Assembly: GCA_001803315.1 (NCBI GenBank)
Contig: MHBQ01000127.1
Coordinates: 2,493 to 44,189 of the forward strand
DNA from: Lentisphaerae bacterium RIFOXYC12_FULL_60_16
Lineage (GTDB): Bacteria > Verrucomicrobiota > Kiritimatiellia > UBA8416 > YA12-FULL-60-10
DNA length: 41,697 nucleotides
Direction: 5' to 3'
The position numbers and the translations under genes were made by a program. Position 1 is the first letter of the stretch, and every line of letters starts with the position of its first letter. Positions 1 through 41,697 of the stretch are shown in pieces. Under the pieces are notes generated by a model. That model ran no database searches. It saw only the letters and a program-made list of their open reading frames with translations, and was not told where the DNA came from.

Positions 1-3000
1 CGGGGAACTCATTCTCAATGCGTTCGAGCAGGCGGCGGGTCTGGCGGGTGTTGCCGGCCCGCAGCTGCTGTTCGGCGATGCGCAGGAGCGCCCCGCGTTC
101 AACGGCGTCGGAGGGGGTCTCGCCGGTGGCGCCCACCTGGCCCAACGCCATGGCGGCCCGGTAGGCGGCCCCGGCCCGTGCGGTTTCGCCCGCGTCGAGT
201 AGCATATCGCCCCAGGCCACGGCGGCCTGGCGGACCAGCGGATGCCGGACCCGCAGGTTTTCATCGAGGATGGAAGCATACAGGCCGTCGGACGTCCGGT
301 AGTCCCGTATGGGATCGCGCTGGACATTGGCGGCGCCCAGCTGGACGAGCATGCGGAGGGTGCGGGATCGACCGGCCTCCCGCAGGGCGGGTTCATGCAG
401 GGCGAGGGCATCGGATGTCTTGCCCAGGCGGGCGAGGGCTTCCATGCGGGTATTGTTCAGGCGCGCCCGGAATGCGACGTCGAGGTTCCGGTTGGCAAGC
501 AGTTGCCGGGTGAGCGGCTCCAGGATTGCCCAGCGGGCGGGCCGGTCGCATACGGTCAGGAAATGGTACAGGTCGCACAGGTGGGCCGGCGGCAGACGGG
601 CCAGGTTCAAACCGGCCAGCGACTGGATGATGCGGTCCGGGGTGAGGGGATTGGCCGGAAGGGGCGGGACCCAGGTCTGGCACCGGCGCTTGAACGGCGG
701 CAGGGACGGGTGGGACGCCAGGCTGGCCGTGATCACACCGGCATCAAAATACACATGATGCGGGGACGGGTTGCCGGACCGGGTGGTGCCGTCGCCGAAG
801 TCCCAGCGCAGGATGCCCGGGTTGGGGATGTTTCCCTGTGCGGCAAAGCGGGCCACATACAATGTGATGCCGTCGGAGGTGAGGGTGTCGTCCATGCCGG
901 CATCGAACAGGGCCACGGGTTTGCCGTCGAAGGATTCGACACCGGCGGGAATGGCGGTGAGCGCCGTGGTGAACGCTTCGCGCGGGACGAACTGCCACTG
1001 GTTGCCGCCGGGTACGATCCAGGAGAGCGTGCACAACCCGATGGCGGCCGGTGTGTTGCCGACAATGTGGTGGACTTCGAACGGATGGATGCCCGCTTCC
1101 AGTTCGATGTCGGCGCCGACCGCGTACAGGGGGGTACGGCCGCGGATGGGCGGATTGGAACCGGTGCGGGAGTAGACCCGGTAGCCATTGATGAACAGGA
1201 ACGCCGCGTCGTCGCCGTTGGCAAAGAAACTGTAGATACCCGGCTGGGTGATCCGGAAATATCCGCGGTAGGAGGCGGCGAAATTGCGCGGGTCATGCCG
1301 GCGGAAGGGGTTGACGTTCTGGAGGATTTCGCCCACGACCGCGGCACCGATGACGTTGTCCGATTTTTGCAGGCCTTCGACCACGGCCGGCCAGGATGCG
1401 AGACGATCGCCGGCCCAATCGCGGAACTCGACGGTCATGCCTTCCTTGAACAGGCGGGGTTCGGCCTCGTAAGCGAGGTCGAAATAGGCTTTTTCCATGG
1501 CGACGGCGTTGGTCACGGTGCTGGCGACGGCGGCCGCGGCCTCGTCGGCGGCGCGTTTGAGCGGATCATAACGCGGCATGAGGGCGGCCAGTCGGGCCTC
1601 GGCATCCGTCTTGATTTTGGTGACTTCGTTGATCCGGGTTTTGGCCTGTGTGACCGCGGCATTCGCGGCCTGGGATGCGCCGGACAATTGTGCCAGGGTC
1701 TGGTCGGCGGTGGCCTTGGCCGTGGCGGTCGGGGCGGCGGCGAGCCGGGCGGCATTGGCGGCTTCACCGGCAACCTTGGCGGCTGTTTCGCGCGGGACGG
1801 CGGCGGCCTCGGCGGCATCGGCATCCTTGCGCAGGGTTTCGAGTTGGCGGGTCAGGTCGGTCACCGACCGGTTGGCTGTGTCGAGAGCGGCTTTGGCCTG
1901 TTCGTGGGCCTGTTCGGCCTGGCGTGCCGCCGGTTCGGATTGATCGGCCTTCTGGCGGGCGGCATCCCGGTTGCGGCCGGATTGTTCGGCGTCGGCCTTG
2001 AGTTTTTCGGCGGCGCGTACTTTCCGTTCGTGGGTGGGATCGGTGGCTGGGGTGTTGGCTGAATCACGGATGGCACGTTCGGATTCCGCGAGGTGGGCGG
2101 CGGCCGTGGCGGTGGCGGCCTCGGCGTTGCGGCGGTCCGTATTGGCCTGCCGGCGCGCCTGTTCCGCGGCGGTCCGGGCAGCGGCCAGCGCCGCGGTTCC
2201 AGTTTTGACCTGTTCACGGGCGTTCTCCAGGTTGCGCGCCGTGTTGTCGCGATCCGTCTTCAGCTGGTTGGCTTTGGCACGCAGGTCGGCGGCTTCCCGT
2301 TCCACGATGCGGGCGGCCGCGGTTTTGGCATCGGCTTCCTTTTCGAACGGTGCATGGGCGGCAGCTGCCTGCTGGGCGATGGCTTGGGCGGGCGGGACTT
2401 TCTCCGCTGCGGCTTGTGCAGCCGTCTCGCGTTCGGGCAGGAGTTTCTGCCACTGGGTCAGTTCAGCGGCGGATTGCTGGATCAGCGTGCGTTCCTTCTC
2501 GACTTCGGCGGCTGTGTCGCGGAGTTCGGCAGCCCGGTCGGCGGATCGCTTCTGGGCGGCCATCTTGGCGAGCAGGGCCTGTTCCGATGCCTTGCGGGAG
2601 GAGGCTATCCGGTTTTCGAGGGCGCGGTCCCGGTCCGGGGCTGCGGGATTGGCCGCATACACCCAGTACCAGCGCTCCACCCCGTTGCGACGGAACTGGC
2701 AGAGGGTGTCGCCCAGCGGGTCATGTGACAGGATGGCGGCGGGGATGCGCCGACCGTTGCGGGTAAGAATCACAAAATCACTGGCATCCGGTTTAAGCCA
2801 GCCGCCGGTCGGGATGCGCGCGATGACGGTCTGGCTGGTCATCGACGGCGGATCCACGATCTGAATCGGGAAGCGGACCTTGTATCCGGCCAGCCAGCCG
2901 GGCGGCGAGACGGGTCCCTGCCGGGTCTCCAGCTGGAGTGCGAGGGCCTGATCGTCCGCACTCAGGGTATTGAAGGGGAGGCGGACCTCCTTGCCGTCGG

Positions 3001-3154
3001 CGGCTTGGATGGTGATATGGTCCTCGATCAGGAACCGATAGCTGCCTTCGACGGGCGGGTTGGATCCCGACCAGACCCGCGCTGCGGGTTCCTGGGCCGG
3101 GCCACGGGCGACAGTCATGAGTATGGTGACGAGAACCGGGAGTCCGTGTTTCAC
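1..3154 (-). CDS. Giant exported SHD1 / coiled-coil / PA14-like / PKD protein (3' end cut by window)
   Basis: The frame is open from a GTG at 3154 to the left edge, about 1,051 codons without a stop. The GTG forms a 4-base GTGA overlap with the stop of the preceding gene; the first in-frame ATG (3118) would remove most of the signal peptide (MKHGLPVLVTILMTVARGPAQ), so GTG is preferred. Seen in order: signal peptide; an SHD1-like segment (about residues 25-75, W..G.....E..Y..., ending LSADDQALAL); a beta-rich segment; a long Ala/Glu/Lys-rich coiled coil (about 170-550); a PA14-like segment (about 615-700, YRGYFRITQPGIYSFFANGD); a PKD-like motif with WDFGDGTT (about 780-795); then TPR-like helices to the edge. 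Role: probably an extracytoplasmic carbohydrate- or surface-binding scaffold. This is inferred from domains; no catalytic site is seen. Confidence 0.82.
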   Translation of the reverse strand, partial: MKHGLPVLVTILMTVARGPAQEPAARVWSGSNPPVEGSYRFLIEDHITIQAADGKEVRLPFNTLSADDQALALQLETRQGPVSPPGWLAGYKVRFPIQIVDPPSMTSQTVIARIPTGGWLKPDASDFVILTRNGRRIPAAILSHDPLGDTLCQFRRNGVERWYWVYAANPAAPDRDRALENRIASSRKASEQALLAKMAAQKRSADRAAELRDTAAEVEKERTLIQQSAAELTQWQKLLPERETAAQAAAEKVPPAQAIAQQAAAAHAPFEKEADAKTAAARIVEREAADLRAKANQLKTDRDNTARNLENAREQVKTGTAALAAARTAAEQARRQANTDRRNAEAATATAAAHLAESERAIRDSANTPATDPTHERKVRAAEKLKADAEQSGRNRDAARQKADQSEPAARQAEQAHEQAKAALDTANRSVTDLTRQLETLRKDADAAEAAAVPRETAAKVAGEAANAARLAAAPTATAKATADQTLAQLSGASQAANAAVTQAKTRINEVTKIKTDAEARLAALMPRYDPLKRAADEAAAAVASTVTNAVAMEKAYFDLAYEAEPRLFKEGMTVEFRDWAGDRLASWPAVVEGLQKSDNVIGAAVVGEILQNVNPFRRHDPRNFAASYRGYFRITQPGIYSFFANGDDAAFLFINGYRVYSRTGSNPPIRGRTPLYAVGADIELEAGIHPFEVHHIVGNTPAAIGLCTLSWIVPGGNQWQFVPREAFTTALTAIPAGVESFDGKPVALFDAGMDDTLTSDGITLYVARFAAQGNIPNPGILRWDFGDGTTRSGNPSPHHVYFDAGVITASLASHPSLPPFKRRCQTWVPPLPANPLTPDRIIQSLAGLNLARLPPAHLCDLYHFLTVCDRPARWAILEPLTRQLLANRNLDVAFRARLNNTRMEALARLGKTSDALALHEPALREAGRSRTLRMLVQLGAANVQRDPIRDYRTSDGLYASILDENLRVRHPLVRQAAVAWGDMLLDAGETARAGAAYRAAMALGQVGATGETPSDAVERGALLRIAEQQLRAGNTRQTRRLLERIENEFP

Positions 3155-3888
3155 GGGGCGACCTCCGGTTCATAGGTTACCCGCAGGAGCCATCGGCCGG
3201 GTTCCTTGGTGAGCGGGGTATGGAAGGCCAGGCTGATCGCGGGATCTTCAACGGTGAACAGCCAGCCGTGATTGGGCACGGTTCCCGTGTACCACAGGTC
3301 CACATCCTCGGTGACGTTGATGGTGACGTCGCCGGGGGTGCGGATGCGGACGATATCCGTAGGCCGGGTGGCACGGTCGGTTGAGAAAGCACGGGCGCCG
3401 GGCCGGGTCCAGGCAAGGGGTTTCGGGTGGGTCATGCGGAACTGGTGGCACACCCCGATTCCCCATTCCGCCAGGATACGCCACAGGTAGAAGCGGGGTT
3501 CGTTGCCCTGGGTGGTCGGCACGTTCACAACCAGTTCCGCATGGATGATCCGGTTCCCCTTGGGAATGGCATCCAGCGCGAAACGGACCAGCAGACCGCG
3601 GCCCTGGACCAGGCCAACGGACGTATTGTGCGCCCGACCCTCGGGCTGTTCATTCAGCGACCAGCTTTGGCGGGGTGCCCACTCCACGATGCCTGCCACC
3701 CGGTCAATGCCGGTGGAGTCGATGATGATGGTGCCGGCCAGAGAGGTGCCGGCGGCTAAGAAGAGGAGGAGCGTTGCGGCAATGGAAAGCGTGCGGGGAG
3801 GGGGGGAGGGGAACGGGGCGGGGTCGCCCCGTCTCCATAAGACGGGAAATGGGAGGTGGAGAGATTTTCGTTTGTTAGACGGGCTCAT
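3151..3888 (-). CDS. Exported DNRLRE-domain-like protein with hairpin element in its N-terminus
   Basis: 245 aa. ATG at 3888 overlaps the upstream stop by 4 bases and the TGA overlaps the next GTG by 4 bases, so it is translationally coupled on both sides. A hydrophobic core (about residues 33-48, LSIAATLLLFLAAG) ending before TIIIDSTGIDRV marks a signal peptide. The mature part resembles DNRLRE/CBM96-type beta-sandwich modules: conserved RFALDAIPKGNRIIHAELVV, a long WRILAEWGIG strand, then VTINVTEDVDLWYTGTVPNHG and a terminal WLLRVTYEP strand. These modules sit in large exported proteins or act as carbohydrate-binding units; function here is inferred. Odd: residues about 13-26 are encoded by a palindromic repeat also found elsewhere in the window, giving a 32-residue, Pro/Arg-rich n-region. 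No Met/Val/Leu start lies between the repeat and the hydrophobic core. Confidence 0.8.
   Translation of the reverse strand: MSPSNKRKSLHLPFPVLWRRGDPAPFPSPPPRTLSIAATLLLFLAAGTSLAGTIIIDSTGIDRVAGIVEWAPRQSWSLNEQPEGRAHNTSVGLVQGRGLLVRFALDAIPKGNRIIHAELVVNVPTTQGNEPRFYLWRILAEWGIGVCHQFRMTHPKPLAWTRPGARAFSTDRATRPTDIVRIRTPGDVTINVTEDVDLWYTGTVPNHGWLFTVEDPAISLAFHTPLTKEPGRWLLRVTYEPEVAP
3811..3850. repeat. Dispersed hairpin element, copy 1 (inside a coding region)
   Basis: Matches 31700-31739 at about 33 of 40 positions and 26 of the first 27. Core is an 8-base stem, ACGGGGCG / CGCCCCGT, around a short G-rich loop, followed by TCTCCA and CGGGAAA. It lies wholly within the N-terminal codons of the DNRLRE-like gene and is read in frame. 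Confidence 0.75.
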
Positions 3889-5066
3889 TGCTTGGTTCCC
3901 GTGATCACGTAAACGCGGTTGAACCGGGTTGAGGCGGCAACCGCCCGGGGCGGGGTGTCCTTGTATTGACGCAGTTGAACCGGGCCGGCGAAGGTGCCGT
4001 CGGCCTGGAGGGGGATGGCCGCCAGCTGACGGGTCATGCCGGCGAACAAGGCGGTGGGCCGACCGGTCATGACGACGGGTGGCAGGTTGAAGTTGTTATG
4101 GGGGTTGTCGACTTCAATGATTTGCGGAAGCAGGGTGAAGTAACCGTCGGTCTGGGCCATTTGGAGCAGGGAGCGGCTGCCGGCGGCGTATAAGTGAGGC
4201 TTGCCGGGAACGCCGCTGATCCACCAGTGGTTGACGGGGGTGGAAAGTGTTCCAAAGGGGCCGCGGCGGTTGACGGTATCCCACAGGCCGATTTCGGTGC
4301 CCCCGCAACTGAAGATCACGGTGCCGGGCGTTGGGGCCAGGAATCCGGGGCGGGCATTGGGGTTGAGAATCTGGTGGGTGTTCACCCAGGTCGGGAGGAG
4401 TTCCTGCTTGAACTCGTTCAATCCGTAACCATCCAGCGTGCCGGGGATCGGGACGGAAACGGGAACGGGGCGGCCGTCGGCGTCGAGGTCGAAATATCCG
4501 AGCGCCGTCTGATTTTTAGCCGGATCGTGCAGGTCGGGCAGGAACAGGCGGCGCGCGGTGTGGTCGAGCAGTTCGCCGAGGGGAAGTTCCCCCCCGTAAG
4601 TGAACACCGGGCCATGCCCCCAGGCCATGATGAAGGCCAGTGACCGGTTGGTGACCGCGTATAACGCCAGGTGGTGGAAGGATTCGGTGATGGCCTTGCC
4701 CTCCGGGGAATCGGGGTTGGGACCGGCCACTTCCTGCCAGACATACAGGAGGGGAAGCGTGGGATGGAACCGGACCCATCGGGGGTAAACATCAAGGGCC
4801 CGGAACGGTTCGGGGAGTTCCAGGCGGAGGGGGACGGGTGGGGTGGCTTCGGGCATGCCGTTGGCCGCCAGCTTGACGAGGGATAAATGCCCGTTGGTCG
4901 AGGCGCGTTCCCCGATGACCAGCAGGCCGGCCGCATCGCCGACGGCGGCGCAGACCGCCTGTGGCGCGGATACGTCGATCACCCGGTTGACGAACAGGTC
5001 CTGTGCCTTCGCACGCGGGACGGCGGTCGTGGTGAGCAGGAGAAGGATCAGCAGCAGACACCTCAT
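3885..5066 (-). CDS. Exported propeller-like protein of unknown function
   Basis: 393 aa with a clear signal peptide (MRCLLLILLLLTTTAVPRAKA, cleavage likely before QDLFVNRVID). ATG at 5066 overlaps the stop of the DUF4175-type gene by 4 bases, and the stop overlaps the next ATG by 4 bases. The mature protein has repeated short beta-rich segments with VRFHPTLPLLYVW, LYAAGSRSLLQMAQ and RFNRVYVITG, the texture of a WD40/lactonase-type beta-propeller: strand, turn, then a residue pair before 'LYV' or 'YVI'. I do not recognise a catalytic motif and cannot assign a family with certainty. Its place between a DUF4175-type membrane protein and two exported binding proteins suggests a periplasmic or surface structural role. 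Alternative: an orphan secreted protein without a propeller fold. Confidence 0.75.
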   Translation of the reverse strand: MRCLLLILLLLTTTAVPRAKAQDLFVNRVIDVSAPQAVCAAVGDAAGLLVIGERASTNGHLSLVKLAANGMPEATPPVPLRLELPEPFRALDVYPRWVRFHPTLPLLYVWQEVAGPNPDSPEGKAITESFHHLALYAVTNRSLAFIMAWGHGPVFTYGGELPLGELLDHTARRLFLPDLHDPAKNQTALGYFDLDADGRPVPVSVPIPGTLDGYGLNEFKQELLPTWVNTHQILNPNARPGFLAPTPGTVIFSCGGTEIGLWDTVNRRGPFGTLSTPVNHWWISGVPGKPHLYAAGSRSLLQMAQTDGYFTLLPQIIEVDNPHNNFNLPPVVMTGRPTALFAGMTRQLAAIPLQADGTFAGPVQLRQYKDTPPRAVAASTRFNRVYVITGTKQ

Positions 5067-8000
5067 AGGCCGGAGAGCCTTTCATAGTAGAGGTTCACGG
5101 CCTCCTCGTAGGCGGGAAGCACGGGCGGCGCCGGTTCGTCGAGCAGGCGGCCGCGGACCGACTGTTCGCGGGGCAGGCTCTGCTCGAACTCGCCGGAGGC
5201 GCGGTTGAACACCATCACCGAACCGCGGAGCGAGTCGAGGGTTTCCACCTGGCGGCGGATGGCGTCGGGGTCGGGTTTCTCCTTGAGCCGGTTCAGGTTG
5301 GCGGTGAGCCGTTCCATGATGTCGTCGAGATGATCCGTGGGCAGGTACAGGCGGTCGAGTTCCTTCTTCAGTGTCTTGATCCGGTCGATCACCTGTTCCT
5401 GGCGGTTATCGAGATCGCGCAGGCGTTCGGCGGCTTCCGCGGAAATCGGCGGACCCTTGCGTTCGACGATCTGGTTCTTGGCCTGCGGCGGCAAGAGCTT
5501 GTCGGCCATGTCGTCCTTCCATTCCCCGGCATTCTTGGTGCTGAAGGTGGAGTTGGGGTCCGCGATGCGCTTGCCGCCAACGCCGGTGGAGGTGTCGGTG
5601 GCGGGATCATCGGAAAGGGTTTCCTTCATTTCACCCTGCTGGTCGGCCACTTCCATCTGGCCTTCCTGGGCCTCATCGCGTCCGCGCCGGTTGACCGATT
5701 CGTCACCGACCGACAGCCCGTGGGCCCGGGCGCCCTGGCGGCCGGCGCGGGAGGCGCCGCCGAAGTTCTGGGTGGGTGGTTTCATGTTGCCGGTGGCGGC
5801 GGCGGCCGCGGTGGAGTTAAGGTCACCGCCCTGTTTGCCGACATTGCCGGTCTCGTTGATCTTCCAGGCGGTGTTGAGGTTGTAGGTTTCGAAATCCTCA
5901 CGCAGGTCGTCGGCCTCCTCCAACAGGTCGCCGACCAGATCCTCGAATTTTTCCTGGATGACCGCCTTGACCGAATTGGGGGCGCGGTCGGAGGAATTCG
6001 GCATGCTCATCTGGCCGGAGGGTTTCTCGGCGAGTTTCAGGTTCTTGAATTCCTGTTCCTTGCTGCCCATGGGGCGGCCGAGCATGCCGCGCATGCTGTC
6101 CTCGAACAGGTAATCGAAGGAGGCGTCCTTGCCGCGGCCGGCATGCTTGTCGGCGGCATCCTCGGCGGCCTTGCGCGCGTGGATGATGTCTTCGAGGTTC
6201 AGCATGGCTTCGTCGACCTGGAGGGGGTTTTCGCCGGAACCGGCCTTGAGCTGATCGATGTCCTGCTGGGTATCGGCCTGGGATTCGGCCAGTGCGCCCA
6301 GTTCATCGATGGCGGCGCGGGCCGCGGCGGCCTGGGTCTGGCGAAGTTTGCGATGCAGGGCGTCGAGTTGTTCGGCGGCCCGCCGCTGGAACCCTTCGGC
6401 TTCCTGCCAGTGTCCCTGTGCCAGGGAGGCGGTGGCCTGCTGCATGGGGGTGCGCAGGGGTTCGGATCCGAGGGAGTCGGCGGTTTCCTTGAATGCGGCG
6501 GTGAGAAGGGGCCCCACCTGGGTGTCGCGGGTGGCCATGCCGGTGAAGGCGGATTGTGCGAGGCCAGCCAGCTCGTGCAGGCGTTGCTGGCGGCGACCGG
6601 AGCCGGTGCGCTGGGTTTCGCCGATGATGTTCACCGCGAGACCGGCATAGGTGGCCGAGGCTTCGGCCATGCCCAGCTGGCGGTCCGCCAGCATCCGGAC
6701 GAAGGGGATCATGCGGGTGAGTTCCCAGTCCTGCCGGTAGGTGGTGAAGCGACCCAGCACCTCGTCTAGGGACCGGGCGCACCGTTCGGTGGTCAGGCGG
6801 GATTCGGCGAGGGCGGTCCGTTTGTCGGCGGGGGTGTCGCGGCGGGGGACCGATTCGAGGATGCGCACGGCGCGGAGCAGTTCGGTGTCGGCCAGCAGGC
6901 CGACCGACAGGCGCAGGTCGCCGGCATCCTCGGGGATGTCGTTGGCGAGGGTGGCGGCGGTGGCACGGAACTCCGCCTGGATACGGGCCTGGTTGGTGAT
7001 GGCGGCGGTCAGGGTGTCGAGGGTACGCTTGTCATCCCAGCGGAGCCCCGAGGCCGGATCGAACTTGCGGATCCATTCGACCGCAAACGCGGTTGAATGG
7101 TCGAGGGAGCTGATCAGTTCACGGAGTCCTTTTTCCACCCGGAGGATGCGTTCATATTCCAGTTGGAGGCGTGCCCCCGGCCCGCTGACGATGCAGGGGA
7201 CCCGGGTTCCGACGATCCATTGCCCGGCATGGCCGGGATGGTTGTCGCGGCCGCGCACCACCAGTTCGACGCTTTCTCCTTCAATGGCGTCAAGGGAGGC
7301 GACCACCAGGGGGACATTGGTGCCGAAGCGGGCGGAGTGGGTGGCCGGGGTCCAGGATTGGAGGGGGAACCAGGCGGGGACGCTATTGGTTCCGTCCGGG
7401 CGTTTCCGGTAGGCCAGTTCGACGGCGTCGATGCCGTAGTCGTCCTCGGCCTGGATGGTGAGTGGCAGGATGGTGTCGGTCAGCAGTTCATCGCCTTCGG
7501 TGACGCCGTTGAGCTGGAGGACGGGAGGGGCGTCGGCAATGGCGCGCAGGCTGAAGGGTCCCAGCGTGGCCGGTGTGCCGTCTGCCAGGGTCATCGAAAG
7601 CCGGTAGACGCCGGGCTGATCGAATGTCAGGGTGGCGGCGCACTCGGAGCGGGTGGTTGATTCGAGTGGGATGGTTTCGGCCGGCTGATCGGAGGGGGTG
7701 TCGGGTGAGGGGAAGCGGAGCAGGGTTCCGGATTTGACCGGCTGGTTGAATTGGAAGCGGATGCCGGCGCGGGTTCCTTCGGGTGCATCCAGGTCGCCGC
7801 CGGTGATTTCCTGCAGCCGGTCCGCCAGGCGGGTGTGGGCGGGATACTGGAACGTGGCGACGGTGCGGCGCAGGGAAAAGGGGACCGGCACCTGGATATG
7901 GAAGAAGCGGCTTTCGAAATCCCCGCCGCGTACGGCATAGCGCAGGGGCTGACGTATGGACTGGAACGTGTGGCGGGCCTCGTGCGTGGTGCGGTTGACG

Positions 8001-8734
8001 GACAGGCGGAGCGAGGAGGGGTCCCCGTCGCGTTCGACGATCAGGCGGACGGTGTCGGGGATCTCGCCCTGGATGCGGATGGTCACCACCACGTCCTGGT
8101 CGGGCACGGCTTCGATGTCGCCGGGCGTGATGTCGAGCACCGTGCGGTAGAGCGGTTCGATCCGGGCCAGCGGGAAGAGGATGCGGGCCGCTGAATTGGA
8201 GAAATGATCCGTGCGGAAGATTCCGAACCAGGCGCCGACCAGCATCAGCACCAGGGCCGCGCTGACTGGTACGATGGCCGGGCGTATGGTGGGGGATGCA
8301 TTGACGGGTTGCCGGCTGATTGTCAGGACGTTCTCGCGGATGACGGTATCCACCAGGGCGCTGTCGGGGTGGCGGGCCAACTGGATGGCGTTGATCAGGC
8401 GGTTGTCGAGCCCGCCGGGCATGCGGCGTTCGATGTCCAGGGCGGCCTGGTCGGGGGAATAGAGGGCGGTGCGCCAGACCCGTGTGGAGTGCCAGGCCAG
8501 CAGGGCGATCAAGCCGAAGAATCCGGACAAGGCCAGCAGGCGGATCGTGGGGGTAAAGTGCAGGGTATTGTCCAGGGCCAGGATGGCCCACAGGTAGGCC
8601 AGCGGGAGGGCGATTTCAATGCCCAAAGCACGGAACAGGACGACGTGCTTGCGCCTACGCCGGCTGGTTTCCACCAGTCGGACCAGATCGCCGGCAATCT
8701 TAGGAAGCGTGACGGGTTGGTGGTTCACTTTCAT
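5063..8734 (-). CDS. DUF4175-type large membrane/coiled-coil protein
   Basis: 1,223 aa, first gene of a four-gene overlapping operon. Seen: basic N-terminus, two adjacent membrane segments (about 38-55 and 63-81), a third at about 153-173, then a beta-rich periplasmic part (about 190-520), long Gln/Ala-rich helices (about 550-850), a low-complexity Gly/Asn/Asp-rich linker (about 930-1060) and a final coiled coil (about 1075-1150, RLRDLDNRQEQVIDRIKTLK). This layout matches the large DUF4175 proteins of planctomycetes and relatives, often near MoxR/BatA-type genes; that family knowledge is from memory and no MoxR gene is in view. Role is unknown, probably envelope assembly or stress. ATG at 8734 has no Shine-Dalgarno site; a TATAAA hexamer ends 7 bases upstream, so the mRNA may be leaderless. 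About 3.7 kb with a consistent reading frame supports the call. Confidence 0.85.
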   Translation of the reverse strand: MKVNHQPVTLPKIAGDLVRLVETSRRRRKHVVLFRALGIEIALPLAYLWAILALDNTLHFTPTIRLLALSGFFGLIALLAWHSTRVWRTALYSPDQAALDIERRMPGGLDNRLINAIQLARHPDSALVDTVIRENVLTISRQPVNASPTIRPAIVPVSAALVLMLVGAWFGIFRTDHFSNSAARILFPLARIEPLYRTVLDITPGDIEAVPDQDVVVTIRIQGEIPDTVRLIVERDGDPSSLRLSVNRTTHEARHTFQSIRQPLRYAVRGGDFESRFFHIQVPVPFSLRRTVATFQYPAHTRLADRLQEITGGDLDAPEGTRAGIRFQFNQPVKSGTLLRFPSPDTPSDQPAETIPLESTTRSECAATLTFDQPGVYRLSMTLADGTPATLGPFSLRAIADAPPVLQLNGVTEGDELLTDTILPLTIQAEDDYGIDAVELAYRKRPDGTNSVPAWFPLQSWTPATHSARFGTNVPLVVASLDAIEGESVELVVRGRDNHPGHAGQWIVGTRVPCIVSGPGARLQLEYERILRVEKGLRELISSLDHSTAFAVEWIRKFDPASGLRWDDKRTLDTLTAAITNQARIQAEFRATAATLANDIPEDAGDLRLSVGLLADTELLRAVRILESVPRRDTPADKRTALAESRLTTERCARSLDEVLGRFTTYRQDWELTRMIPFVRMLADRQLGMAEASATYAGLAVNIIGETQRTGSGRRQQRLHELAGLAQSAFTGMATRDTQVGPLLTAAFKETADSLGSEPLRTPMQQATASLAQGHWQEAEGFQRRAAEQLDALHRKLRQTQAAAARAAIDELGALAESQADTQQDIDQLKAGSGENPLQVDEAMLNLEDIIHARKAAEDAADKHAGRGKDASFDYLFEDSMRGMLGRPMGSKEQEFKNLKLAEKPSGQMSMPNSSDRAPNSVKAVIQEKFEDLVGDLLEEADDLREDFETYNLNTAWKINETGNVGKQGGDLNSTAAAAATGNMKPPTQNFGGASRAGRQGARAHGLSVGDESVNRRGRDEAQEGQMEVADQQGEMKETLSDDPATDTSTGVGGKRIADPNSTFSTKNAGEWKDDMADKLLPPQAKNQIVERKGPPISAEAAERLRDLDNRQEQVIDRIKTLKKELDRLYLPTDHLDDIMERLTANLNRLKEKPDPDAIRRQVETLDSLRGSVMVFNRASGEFEQSLPREQSVRGRLLDEPAPPVLPAYEEAVNLYYERLSGL

Positions 8735-31346: not shown

Positions 31347-31625
31347 ATGAAATCAGCTTATGAATTGGCCATGGAGCGGCTGGGTGGATCACGTTCCTAC
31401 ACGAACGGGCAGAAACAGCAGATGGCCGAGATCGACCGGAAATATGAAGCCCGGCTGGCGGAGGCACGGTTGCGTGCCGAGGATCACTTCCGGAAGTTGG
31501 GCCCTGTTACCGCTGAAACCGCGGACCAGGAAAAGACAATCCGTGAAAACCTGGCGCGGGATGTGACGAAACTCGAGCAGAAGCGTGAAGCGGAAAAGGA
31601 AGCCGTCCGGGCTGGACGCACCTGA
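31347..31625 (+). CDS. Small charged helical protein, PVC-type hypothetical
   Basis: 92 aa from ATG 31347 with GGAGG about 6 bases upstream; the frame from 31278 adds an unlikely leader. Highly charged and helical (EIDRKYEARLAEARLRAEDH), no signal peptide or membrane segment. I recall similar short proteins starting MKSAYELAMERL in several PVC genomes, of unknown function; this is from memory and unverified. Co-directional and 93 bases after the GHL10-type gene. Confidence 0.72.
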   Translation: MKSAYELAMERLGGSRSYTNGQKQQMAEIDRKYEARLAEARLRAEDHFRKLGPVTAETADQEKTIRENLARDVTKLEQKREAEKEAVRAGRT

Positions 31626-31665
31626 TCCGGAAGGATGACAATTCGCGTGCCCGCCTGGAGGACCT

Positions 31666-31681
31666 GGCCCGACCCCGGGCC
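31666..31681. terminator. GC-only hairpin between convergent genes
   Basis: GGCCCG (31666-31671) opposite CGGGCC (31676-31681), 4-base loop. Together with the dispersed hairpin 19 bases on, it may separate the convergent transcripts. No T-run, so weak. Confidence 0.3.
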
Positions 31682-31699
31682 GGTCTGGGAGGAGATGAA

Positions 31700-31739
31700 G
31701 AACGGGGCGAGGTCGCCCCGTCTCCAGGGCGCGGGAAAC
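31700..31739. repeat. Dispersed hairpin element, copy 2
   Basis: Stem ACGGGGCGA opposite TCGCCCCGT with GG loop at 31702-31721, followed by the shared TCTCCA and CGGGAAA words. Lies between convergent genes ending at 31625 and 31743, where it could also stop transcription. Confidence 0.7.
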
Positions 31740-38480: not shown

Positions 38481-41400
38481 TCAGCGTGGGATCAACTTCA
38501 ACACCACGGTTCGATTCTTGATGCGGGTTGCATCGTCGAGGTTGGAAAAGGGCGGATCCATTTCGCCTGCCGAGGTGGTGTAGACCAGGTCGGGGGGCAG
38601 TGCCATGGGGCCGGTCAACAGTTTGGCCACCAGGCTGGCCCGGGCCATGGCCAATGCATGATTGTCCAGCGAGGTGTGGGACGTGCTGACGGGTACGGTA
38701 TCCGTGTGGCCCTCAACGATGAGCTTGAAGCGGGACATGTGCGGGCCAAGCCGGTCCGCCACGGCGTGGAGTGCCGGCAGGGCGCGCGGGGATAAATTGG
38801 TCATGGTGGTGAATATCCCGAAATCGAACACCAGGGCCCGGCCGGTCGGTGATTCGCGTACCAGGATGTCGGGCAGGTCCAGGTCCGGCCAGGACTCCGG
38901 TTCCGGGGGGATGGATTCCGGAATGGCCGGCGTGGTTGCCAGGGGGGGTTCCACCGGTGAAGGGAGCGGATCAGGAATCTCGGGAGGCGGTGGCGGGGGG
39001 GGGACGGGAGGGGTATCCGCAACGCCGGCAGGTCGTGATGGTCTTCCGTCAGGGATGGGTGGCGTTGGTTCGGCGTGTCCGCCGATCCGGTATGCCACGA
39101 TTATGCAGAGCAGCCAGGCTGCGGCGATGGCCATGATGGATGGCCGGATCCAGGAACGTGCCGGTGGGATCGGCTGGTCGGCTGTCTGCCGGGTCAGCCG
39201 GGCTTCCAGTTGCGATACCTGGGCCGTCAAGGCCGCCGCTTGCTGGCGGGCCTGGTCAAGCATGGCTGCCGCTGCGGAATCCGACTGGAGGGCTTTCAGG
39301 TCGCGAAGCACGGCGGTATGTCGCTGGTTCAGGGTTCGATTTTCCTGTTGCTGGCGTTGAAGCTCACGTTCGACCTGTTGCCGCTGGTTGTTAAGTTCAA
39401 ACGACTGGATCTCATGCAGATGAATGGTGGCCTGGAGTTCCGCTTCACGCTTCTCCATCTTGGATCGCAATTCGGACTCAAGCGCGTTCTCCTGTTGCAG
39501 TGATTCCTTGAGGCCTGCCGCCGCCACGTCCAACTGTTGGATTTCCTCCTGCAGGTGAAGGATCGTGGCTGACTGTTTGGCGTGGTCGGCCATGGCGTCG
39601 GCCAGTTGACGTTCAAGGTCCCGGATTCTGGCCGTTTGTTCATCGTTACGGGCCGCTTGTGACGTCACGTGGGTTTCAGCCTGGTGCAGGGACTGCTCCA
39701 GTGCCCGGCGTGCGGTCTCAAAGGTGTTCCGTTCCTGTTGCCATGACTCCGTCTGCTTTTGATCATCGATCCGGAGTGAATCCAACGACTGCTGGAGGGC
39801 GGCCTGACGGGTTTCCGCCACCGCCAGTGTATTCCGGGCGTCAGCCAGCTCGTGCCGGGTGATCTGGTGATCGGCGCCGGCCTGCTGGAGGGATTGCTGG
39901 GAATCGTCGAGCTGGCGGGTCAACTGCCCGATGCGCTCATCGGCGGTGGAGGCTGCGGTCCCGGCGGCCTGGAGCTCCGTCCGTGCCTGTTCGAGTTCGG
40001 TTGCCTGGTGTTCCAGGCGGGTTTCCGCCGCCGTCAGTGTGTCCCGGGTGTCCGCCAACTCGCGCCGGGTGATCTGGTGATCGGCGGCGGCCTGCTGGAG
40101 GGATTGCTGGGAATCGTCGAGCTGGCGGGTCAATTGCCCGATGCGCTCGTCGGCGGTGGAGGCTGCGTTCGTGGCGGCCTGGAGCTCCGTCCGTGCCTGT
40201 TCGAGTTCAGCTGCCTGGTGTTCCAGGCGGGTTGTCAGATCGGCGATGGTTGTCCTGGCCTGGATCAGGGATTGTTCCAGCGCCTGGCGTGCGGTCTCAG
40301 ATTCACCGGTACGGGTCTTGAGGGTTGTCTGCAGCTGATGGAGGGATTCGCGGGTTGTCCGGGCTTCATCGTTTGATTTTTCGAGATCCGTTTGCAGATG
40401 CTGGATTTCCGCCTCAAGCCGTGTCCGGGTGGTCTGCCATTCGGACTGGCGGGATGCTCCGGCTTCCACTGCGTTTCGGGCGGCGGCCAGTTCCCGTCGC
40501 GTGATCTGCTGCTCAGCATCGGTTTGCTGGAGGGATTGCCGGGTATCTTCGAGCTGGTCGGTCAATTGTTGAATACGTTCGCCGGTGGCGGCGGCCGAAG
40601 CAACCGCGTCCTGGAGTTCGGTTTGGACCTGTTTGAGTTCGGCGGTTTGCCCGTTGAATCGGTCGTTGAGTTCGGCGACGGATAGACGTTCCCGTTCGAG
40701 GGATTCCGTGAGTGAGACCTGTTCGGTATGTGCCTGTTCCAGTTCGCCGGCCTTAAGGGTGAGTTGACGTTCCAGTTCCGCACGTTGGGCGGTTGTGTCC
40801 TCGCGGAGCCGTTCCAGTTCGACGGACAGGGTTTCCGAGGTGCTTCGCTTGGTGGTCAGTTCATTGGTCAGGTTCTGCCGCTGGCGGTCGATTTCTTTCA
40901 GACGGCTCTCGGCCTTGGTCAGCGCGGCGAGGGTTGTTTGCCTTTCCTGCTCTGCCCGGTCGGCGAGTTGGCGGGTCGCTTCGAGGCGGGCGGTAAGCTC
41001 GCGGATCGAGGTGTCGGCCCTGGCTTCCGTTTCCCGGCTTGCGGCAGCCTCGGATTGTGAGACGGTGCGGGCCTCTTCCAGGGCCCGTTCCAGTGCGGCT
41101 TGTTCGGCCTGGGATTGCCGGATCGTTGTTTCGAGCGACTGAATCCTGTGTGCGGCGTCGGCTTCTGCTTCAGACCGTGCCTGTTGGTCATTCGCGCGTT
41201 CGGCCTTGAGGGCTTCCCTTTCCTGTTCCAGTTCCAGGATGCAGGCGCTGGAGGATTCCTGCAAGGCGGTCAATTTGGCGGCCAGCAGGGTTTCGTTTTC
41301 ACGGGCCTGCTGCCAGAGGGCGTCCGCGTGGGAACGATCACCGGCGACGGTGCCCTGAATGCGGGTGACTTCCGATTTGGCCTCGTCCAATTGTTCGCGG

Positions 41401-41697
41401 AGTTGCTCGAGTTGCCCGTTAAGTTGTTGTTCCCGCGCAACGGCACGGTCGGTCAGGCGCTGGTTTTCCAATTTGACACGTTCCGTTTCGCGTACGGCGC
41501 CCTGGCAGCGTTCAGCGGCGGCGGCCGCCTCGTTACGTGCTTTTTCGAAGGCGGACTGGAGGGCTTCCAGTTGTTGCTGTGACTTGGCCGTGGCGGATGA
41601 TTCGGAGCGTGACCGGAGTTCGGAGCGCTGGATCTGATCGGCAATCTGCCGGGTCAGTTTCTGGTTTTCCGCCTGCAGGGCGGTCAGTTGCTTTTGG
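38481..41697 (-). CDS. Very long coiled-coil protein with C-terminal OmpA/MotB-like domain (start cut by window)
   Basis: Open to the right edge, more than 1,070 codons; the true start lies outside. Nearly all of the visible N-terminal 750 residues are Gln/Glu/Ala/Arg-rich coiled coil. A membrane segment ([20 protein letters not shown]) follows, then a Pro-rich stretch with [19 protein letters not shown], then an OmpA-like domain ([43 protein letters not shown]) that usually binds peptidoglycan. So the long coil is cytoplasmic or the coil and OmpA part are on opposite sides of the membrane: an envelope-spanning tether is the likely role. Contains a 2 x 210-base tandem repeat. Upstream of dut. 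Confidence 0.87.
39811..40230 (-). repeat. Two tandem 210-base units in the coiled-coil gene
   Basis: Units 39811-40020 and 40021-40230 are about 90% identical and start GTTTCCGCC(A/G)CCG on the plus strand. 210 bases are 70 residues, exactly ten heptads, so the duplication keeps the coiled-coil register. A third, diverged unit lies near 40500. Confidence 0.85.

Follow-up and report, generated by a model that had tools for sequence, protein, structure and literature searches.

The locus raises the question of how a dispersed, GC-rich hairpin repeat can lie in frame within the n-region of a signal peptide, and what becomes of the residues that it encodes. In the window, i.e., the whole 41,697-nt stretch of DNA analysed, such a palindromic repeat had been proposed by the first-pass annotation, and this proposal was borne out by pattern searches of the genome, with matches far above a reversed-pattern control. 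The 23-mer CGGGGCGRGGTCGCCCCGTCTCC has 40 genome matches at ≤ 3 mismatches against 1 for the control, and a looser pattern has 88 against 9, indicating that the family is not due to chance. Read with flanks, about 70 copies are present in this genome. As in REPs in the broad sense, the repeat is a short (14–40 nt) palindrome with one consensus and many copies per genome. A rough codon model finds no plausible coding frame across most of them, hence a mainly extragenic location, again as in broad-sense REPs; the few intragenic copies are all located at gene ends. Many copies form head-to-head dimers with GGAG outermost and a conserved spacer (~ 25–30 nt), and others are single. An exact-pattern scan of named genomes located the repeat in MAGs labelled Lentisphaerae, Kiritimatiellae, Verrucomicrobia and Opitutaceae, among others. 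One of these matches has the same coordinates as one in G074, which makes Kiritimatiellia very probably the class of the window. L129 (CGGAGCCGGGGCAACCCCGCCCCG), whose match falls within a long gene, probably matches by chance or as a diverged copy, and it was left out of the intragenic count.

Two copies are found in the window (3811–3849 and 31700–31738, 85% identical), with the following REP features:

3808 to 3837, minus strand: REP copy 1, ~ 30-nt common block TGGAGACGGGGCGACCCCGCCCCGTTCCCC, codons 18–27 (WRRGDPAPFP), delimited by alignment of single genome copies
3814 to 3837, minus strand: REP core 24-mer with unpaired head TGGAG, stem and loop ACCC, from the pattern match and stem covariation
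31703 to 31726, minus strand: REP copy 2, extragenic
31656 to 31684, plus strand: degenerate second-type REP, the head-to-head partner of copy 2 (AGGACCTGGCCCGACCCCGGGCCG, 3 mismatches)

Copy 2 is flanked by a plus-strand frame ending near 31625 and by the stop (31743) of a minus-strand HpcH/HpaI gene; together with its partner it is a REPIN/BIME-like dimer.

Counted from the head, the repeat unit begins with TGGAG, continues with a G+C-rich stem of 8 bp and a loop of four bases (ACCY), and ends in a tail. Sub-type 1 (TGGAGA-CGGGGCG-ACCY-CGCCCCG-TTC; 21 copies, both window copies included) and sub-type 2 (TGGAGC-CGG(GG/CC)CG-ACCY-CG(CC/GG)CCG-GTC; 47 copies) differ in a compensatory manner, with 3 of the 8 stem pairs altered on both sides. 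In the stem covariation analysis 98.9% of cells are paired, and the score of 0.465, compared with 0.176 for shuffled alignments, was unmatched by any of 500 shuffles. Complementary changes preserve the stem-loop, a further property of broad-sense REPs, and the GGAG head is retained in all 22 distinct aligned variants. Copy 1 itself attains a local alignment score of 30 out of 30 (shuffle maximum 14), and its stem extends to 8 bp once base 3813 is included (ACGGGGCG/CGCCCCGT). The unit is free of stops in all six frames, and the element is predicted to fold into an RNA hairpin of − 20.4 kcal/mol. We set aside a reading of this hairpin as an intrinsic terminator, because it is not followed by a T run.

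The boundaries of the block had initially been drawn too widely, at 39–42 nt encoding residues 13–26. Alignment of single sub-type-1 copies yields a common block of ~ 30 nt, TGGAGACGGGGCGACCYCGCCCCGTTCCC(C/T), i.e., TGGAG...CGTTCCC(C/T), and places the repeat-encoded residues at 18–27. The excess stems from a CGGGAAA extension that is common to the two window copies only and is probably shared by chance. Second-type REPs, at loci such as L104, L105, L109, L116 and L123, often lie inside a longer conserved stretch (GTCTGGTTGGTGGTTGGCAGGCCGTGTGATGAACCGACGGGCTTCCAT), which is possibly a larger mobile unit. A repeat of another kind occupies ORF 38481–41471 of the window, where a 210-bp direct repeat is present as 91% identical tandem copies (39803–40222) and as a third, weaker copy at 40445.

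Copy 1 is read as protein if translation of its host gene begins upstream of it. The features that bear on this are all on the minus strand:

3151 to 3888, minus strand: REP-carrying secreted-protein gene (245 aa), with orthologues in G060, G104 and G106
3885 to 3888, minus strand: ATGA overlap between the stop of the upstream gene and the start of the REP-carrying gene, conserved in four loci
3885 to 5066, minus strand: upstream gene of the same operon, with a homologue directly upstream in 3 of 3 orthologous loci (28–32% identity)
5063 to 8734, minus strand: gene further upstream in the same operon, its C-terminus matching the corresponding place in 3 of 3 orthologous loci (51–63% identity)
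3739 to 3789, minus strand: hydrophobic core of the signal peptide, residues 34–50, from the sequence and from a helix in a low-confidence model

The 245-aa protein is weakly DNRLRE-like, with 21.3 bits against NF033679 lying below the cut-off of 34. The order of the two upstream genes is the same at all orthologous loci, and the stop-start overlap reads ATGA, ATGA, ATGA and GTGA at the four. Because this overlap is conserved in all of them, the start at 3888 is firm by sequence evidence. Within codons 1–60, codon 1 is the only ATG, GTG or TTG, in agreement with the earlier claim that no start lies between the repeat and the hydrophobic core; before codon 54, the rarer candidates comprise only ATT36 and CTG50. 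The open frame, the conserved start and the orthologues all support the view that the repeat is probably translated in frame within a real gene.

Both the signal peptide and the site of its cleavage were assigned by visual inspection. A51 and T53 are invariant in the alignment with the orthologues, suggesting cleavage after A51, in which case the residues encoded by the REP would be split off together with the signal peptide and the mature protein would lose the insert. AlphaFold models the REP-carrying protein with low confidence (pLDDT 60, pTM 0.59); residues 1–36 are mostly low-confidence, and a helix spans residues 33–48. The n-region of 32 residues that the first-pass annotation described is about right in length, and it is not abnormal, with repeat-free orthologues having n-regions of about 25, 9 and 29 residues. 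Length is thus highly variable among these proteins, and the region is permissive.

The comparison of orthologues for presence or absence of the block, proposed at the outset, showed three orthologues from the class (40–46% identity) to be without the repeat. DNA-level alignment against shuffles detected no REP remnant in their n-regions. The G106 n-region WGGDRPSPVG was considered as a relic of the REP peptide and rejected, its DNA-level score not exceeding that of shuffles. For the G060 n-region, the p value of 0.012 came from one of six tests and is non-significant once corrected. These are the nearest orthologues compared, no close relatives of the window locus having been found, and it is from sequences at this distance that we infer the insertion event itself.

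A candidate for the mover of the repeat is provided by related genomes. At L082, to which the exact-pattern scan led, a 161-residue protein encoded between inverted repeat copies passes the NCBI model for REP-associated tyrosine transposases (NF047646) with 90.2 bits against a cut-off of 80. We searched the class with this RAYT, obtaining 30 homologous loci, and scanned their flanks for any GGAG hairpin. Such hairpins lie near the RAYT in 9 of the 10 closest homologues (on both sides in 7) and in 0 of the 20 more distant ones, compared with 3% of shuffled loci (Fisher p about 7e-7). Their confinement to the closest homologues indicates that this RAYT clade and the repeat type go together. The arrangement known as a REPtron, a RAYT flanked by inverted repeat-type copies, is therefore found in the same lineage, at L082 and at the class homologues. 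At the RAYT loci L134–L143 the flanking repeats keep the GGAG head and, in most cases, a loop of the form xCCY, with stems that vary by genome; this variation suggests co-evolution of RAYT and REP. The L082 contig (VGYL01000764.1, labelled Planctomycetota) carries 16 repeat copies in 3.8 kb (200–3750) around the RAYT gene (~ 577–1062, minus strand), and it may be mis-binned, since a Lentisphaerae MAG sampled at the same site has these repeat arrays too.

In the own genome (G000, assembly 85.75% complete) we found no match to the cognate RAYT clade; the gene may have been lost, or it may fall in the missing 14% of the assembly. The five other Y1 transposases of this genome have no GGAG hairpins in their flanks. 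At L034 and L035 it has a pair of truncated Y1 transposase genes that closely resemble each other and belong to another clade. A family-based Y1 search in eight relatives showed no flanking REPs, because it recovered mostly other Y1 clades. From the association in relatives we infer that a RAYT moved the window copy as well.

The window gene is not the only one with a repeat near its start. In a membrane-protein gene (L020, C13:67060–68250) a REP occupies codons 11–18 (WSRGDLAP) behind an ATGA overlap, and the next start codon is located only past the first hydrophobic segment. The G199 orthologue shares the overlap, is shorter in its tail and lacks the repeat. At L001, around 1501 (G000:C21:3055), a REP follows a TTG and precedes a signal peptide. 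This TTG is the only in-frame upstream start and a nearby ATG sits in a different frame, as if the frame had been changed by insertion or assembly error, which makes this intragenic case uncertain. Together with the window gene, L020 and L001 bring to three the gene starts that have a repeat and no later start codon. At L112, L028 and L030 the copies are within C-terminal tails.

We consider it very likely that the window block is a tolerated, near-neutral insertion of REP type, which a RAYT acting in trans most likely mobilised and whose encoded residues would be removed with the signal peptide. A RAYT (a Y1/HUH single-strand transposase) of the GGAG-linked clade would have copied a REP via single-stranded DNA, and the copy would have landed in the 5′ part of gene 3151–3888, downstream of the start codon. 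The preprotein would still be made with the REP inside, because the element is open in six frames, the net frame is kept, and the position lies between the initiation region and the hydrophobic core. About 50 nt of coding sequence precede the hairpin, which puts it beyond the footprint of an initiating ribosome. Roughly ten REP-encoded residues would lengthen the n-region and then be removed with the signal peptide, leaving the mature protein unchanged. Tolerance of the insertion can be attributed to the loosely constrained length of the n-region and to the cutting off of the peptide.

Other readings of the block were also weighed. The block might be 5′ untranslated, if a non-standard codon downstream of it were the true start and the annotated N-terminus were wrong. 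Di Nocera et al. suspect this for many N-terminal REPs (PMC3733652), and both ATT36 and CTG50 lie downstream of the block. Even so, no ATG, GTG or TTG follows within 60 codons after codon 1, the annotated ATG lies in an ATGA overlap that has a conserved counterpart at all orthologous loci, and a start at ATT36 would leave hardly any n-region, which makes this reading quite improbable here. An active role of the hairpin, tuning translation of the coupled gene or slowing secretion of the preprotein, would suit a stable GC hairpin at this distance into the coding sequence, the similar placement of a second copy in another ATGA-coupled gene (L020), and the view that REPs act as RNA elements (PMC3733652). 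It is nevertheless very unlikely, as the hairpin is missing from the orthologues despite their conserved operon structure, and as two unrelated genes struck, along with the preference for non-coding sites, have the look of tolerated insertions.

The three gene starts mentioned above could also be taken as a sign of selection for REPs at signal peptides and N-terminal tails of membrane proteins, where they would supply new n-regions. We regard such exaptation as extremely unlikely: three cases in about 70 copies demonstrate no enrichment, N-terminal tails are simply permissive, and one of the three, L001 with its TTG start, is uncertain. Very doubtful, too, is a scenario for Kiritimatiellia-type bacteria in which their GGAG REP/RAYT system would insert time and again, in frame and directly behind the start codon, into translationally coupled genes whose products are exported or reside in the membrane, the REP n-region being kept because it changes export or expression.

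GTAG REPs have GT(A/G)G heads and RAYTs located between inverted REPs (Nunvar 2010, PMC2817692). With these our family shares a 20–40 nt hairpin, an unpaired tetranucleotide head, a GC-rich 8-bp stem and a short loop, as well as compensatory stem variants, singles alongside head-to-head dimers, a mostly extragenic location and a RAYT between inverted copies (PMC2817692, PMC3733652). It differs in its head, which is GGAG in all aligned variants and neither GT(A/G)G nor one of the listed variants GYAG, GYRG, GTRG and GTMG, so that it does not belong to the GTAG super-family; moreover, the cognate RAYT is found here in related genomes only and not in the own genome. REPINs and BIMEs, reportedly treated by Bertels and Rainey in 2011, are resembled by many of the copies, window copy 2 included, which form head-to-head pairs with a spacer of about 25–30 nt, whereas the signal-peptide copy is a single REP unpaired with another.

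The CGTC super-family is defined by an unpaired CGTC (or TGTC/CCTC) head, A-T first stem pairs and no transposase (PMC3733652). The GGAG head, the G+C-rich stem and the RAYT association place our repeat outside it; CGTC REPs, RPE-4 and RPE-6 among them, have no known transposase, whereas the GGAG family is associated with a RAYT clade. The GGAG head thus falls outside both published super-families. As for the Rickettsia palindromic elements to which the block had been likened, these too are palindromic repeats in frame within coding genes, with another head, sequence and lineage, and RPE-1 is longer. The element is of the REP/RAYT type and not specifically RPE-like, although RPE-4 and RPE-6 are themselves CGTC-class REPs (PMC3733652). 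Our literature search found no paper on Kiritimatiellia REPs or on GGAG-headed REPs, which does not prove their absence; in this lineage, neither the family of repeats nor the transposase that goes with it appears to have been described so far. The locus points to a GGAG-headed REP family and a transposase clade in a poorly studied lineage.

In-frame elements had been thought unfamiliar in this lineage, an impression that has to be revised. A catalogue of REPs read in frame within genes was given by Di Nocera et al. (2013), who noted N-terminal ones and suspected many to be misannotated, with Opitutus terrae (Verrucomicrobia) leading their survey in the number of intragenic GTAG REPs (PMC3733652). 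The in-frame location is therefore not new in kind, and the principle, already known, is not extended by our case. Like the window copy, the intragenic REPs of Opitutus terrae are in frame within protein genes of a Verrucomicrobia lineage, some of them near the N-terminus. What distinguishes the window copy is that a conserved stop-start overlap backs the upstream start and that the encoded peptide should go with the signal peptide. It offers a well-delimited case of a mobile hairpin that is read as protein while the mature product should stay untouched, which explains how such insertions survive.
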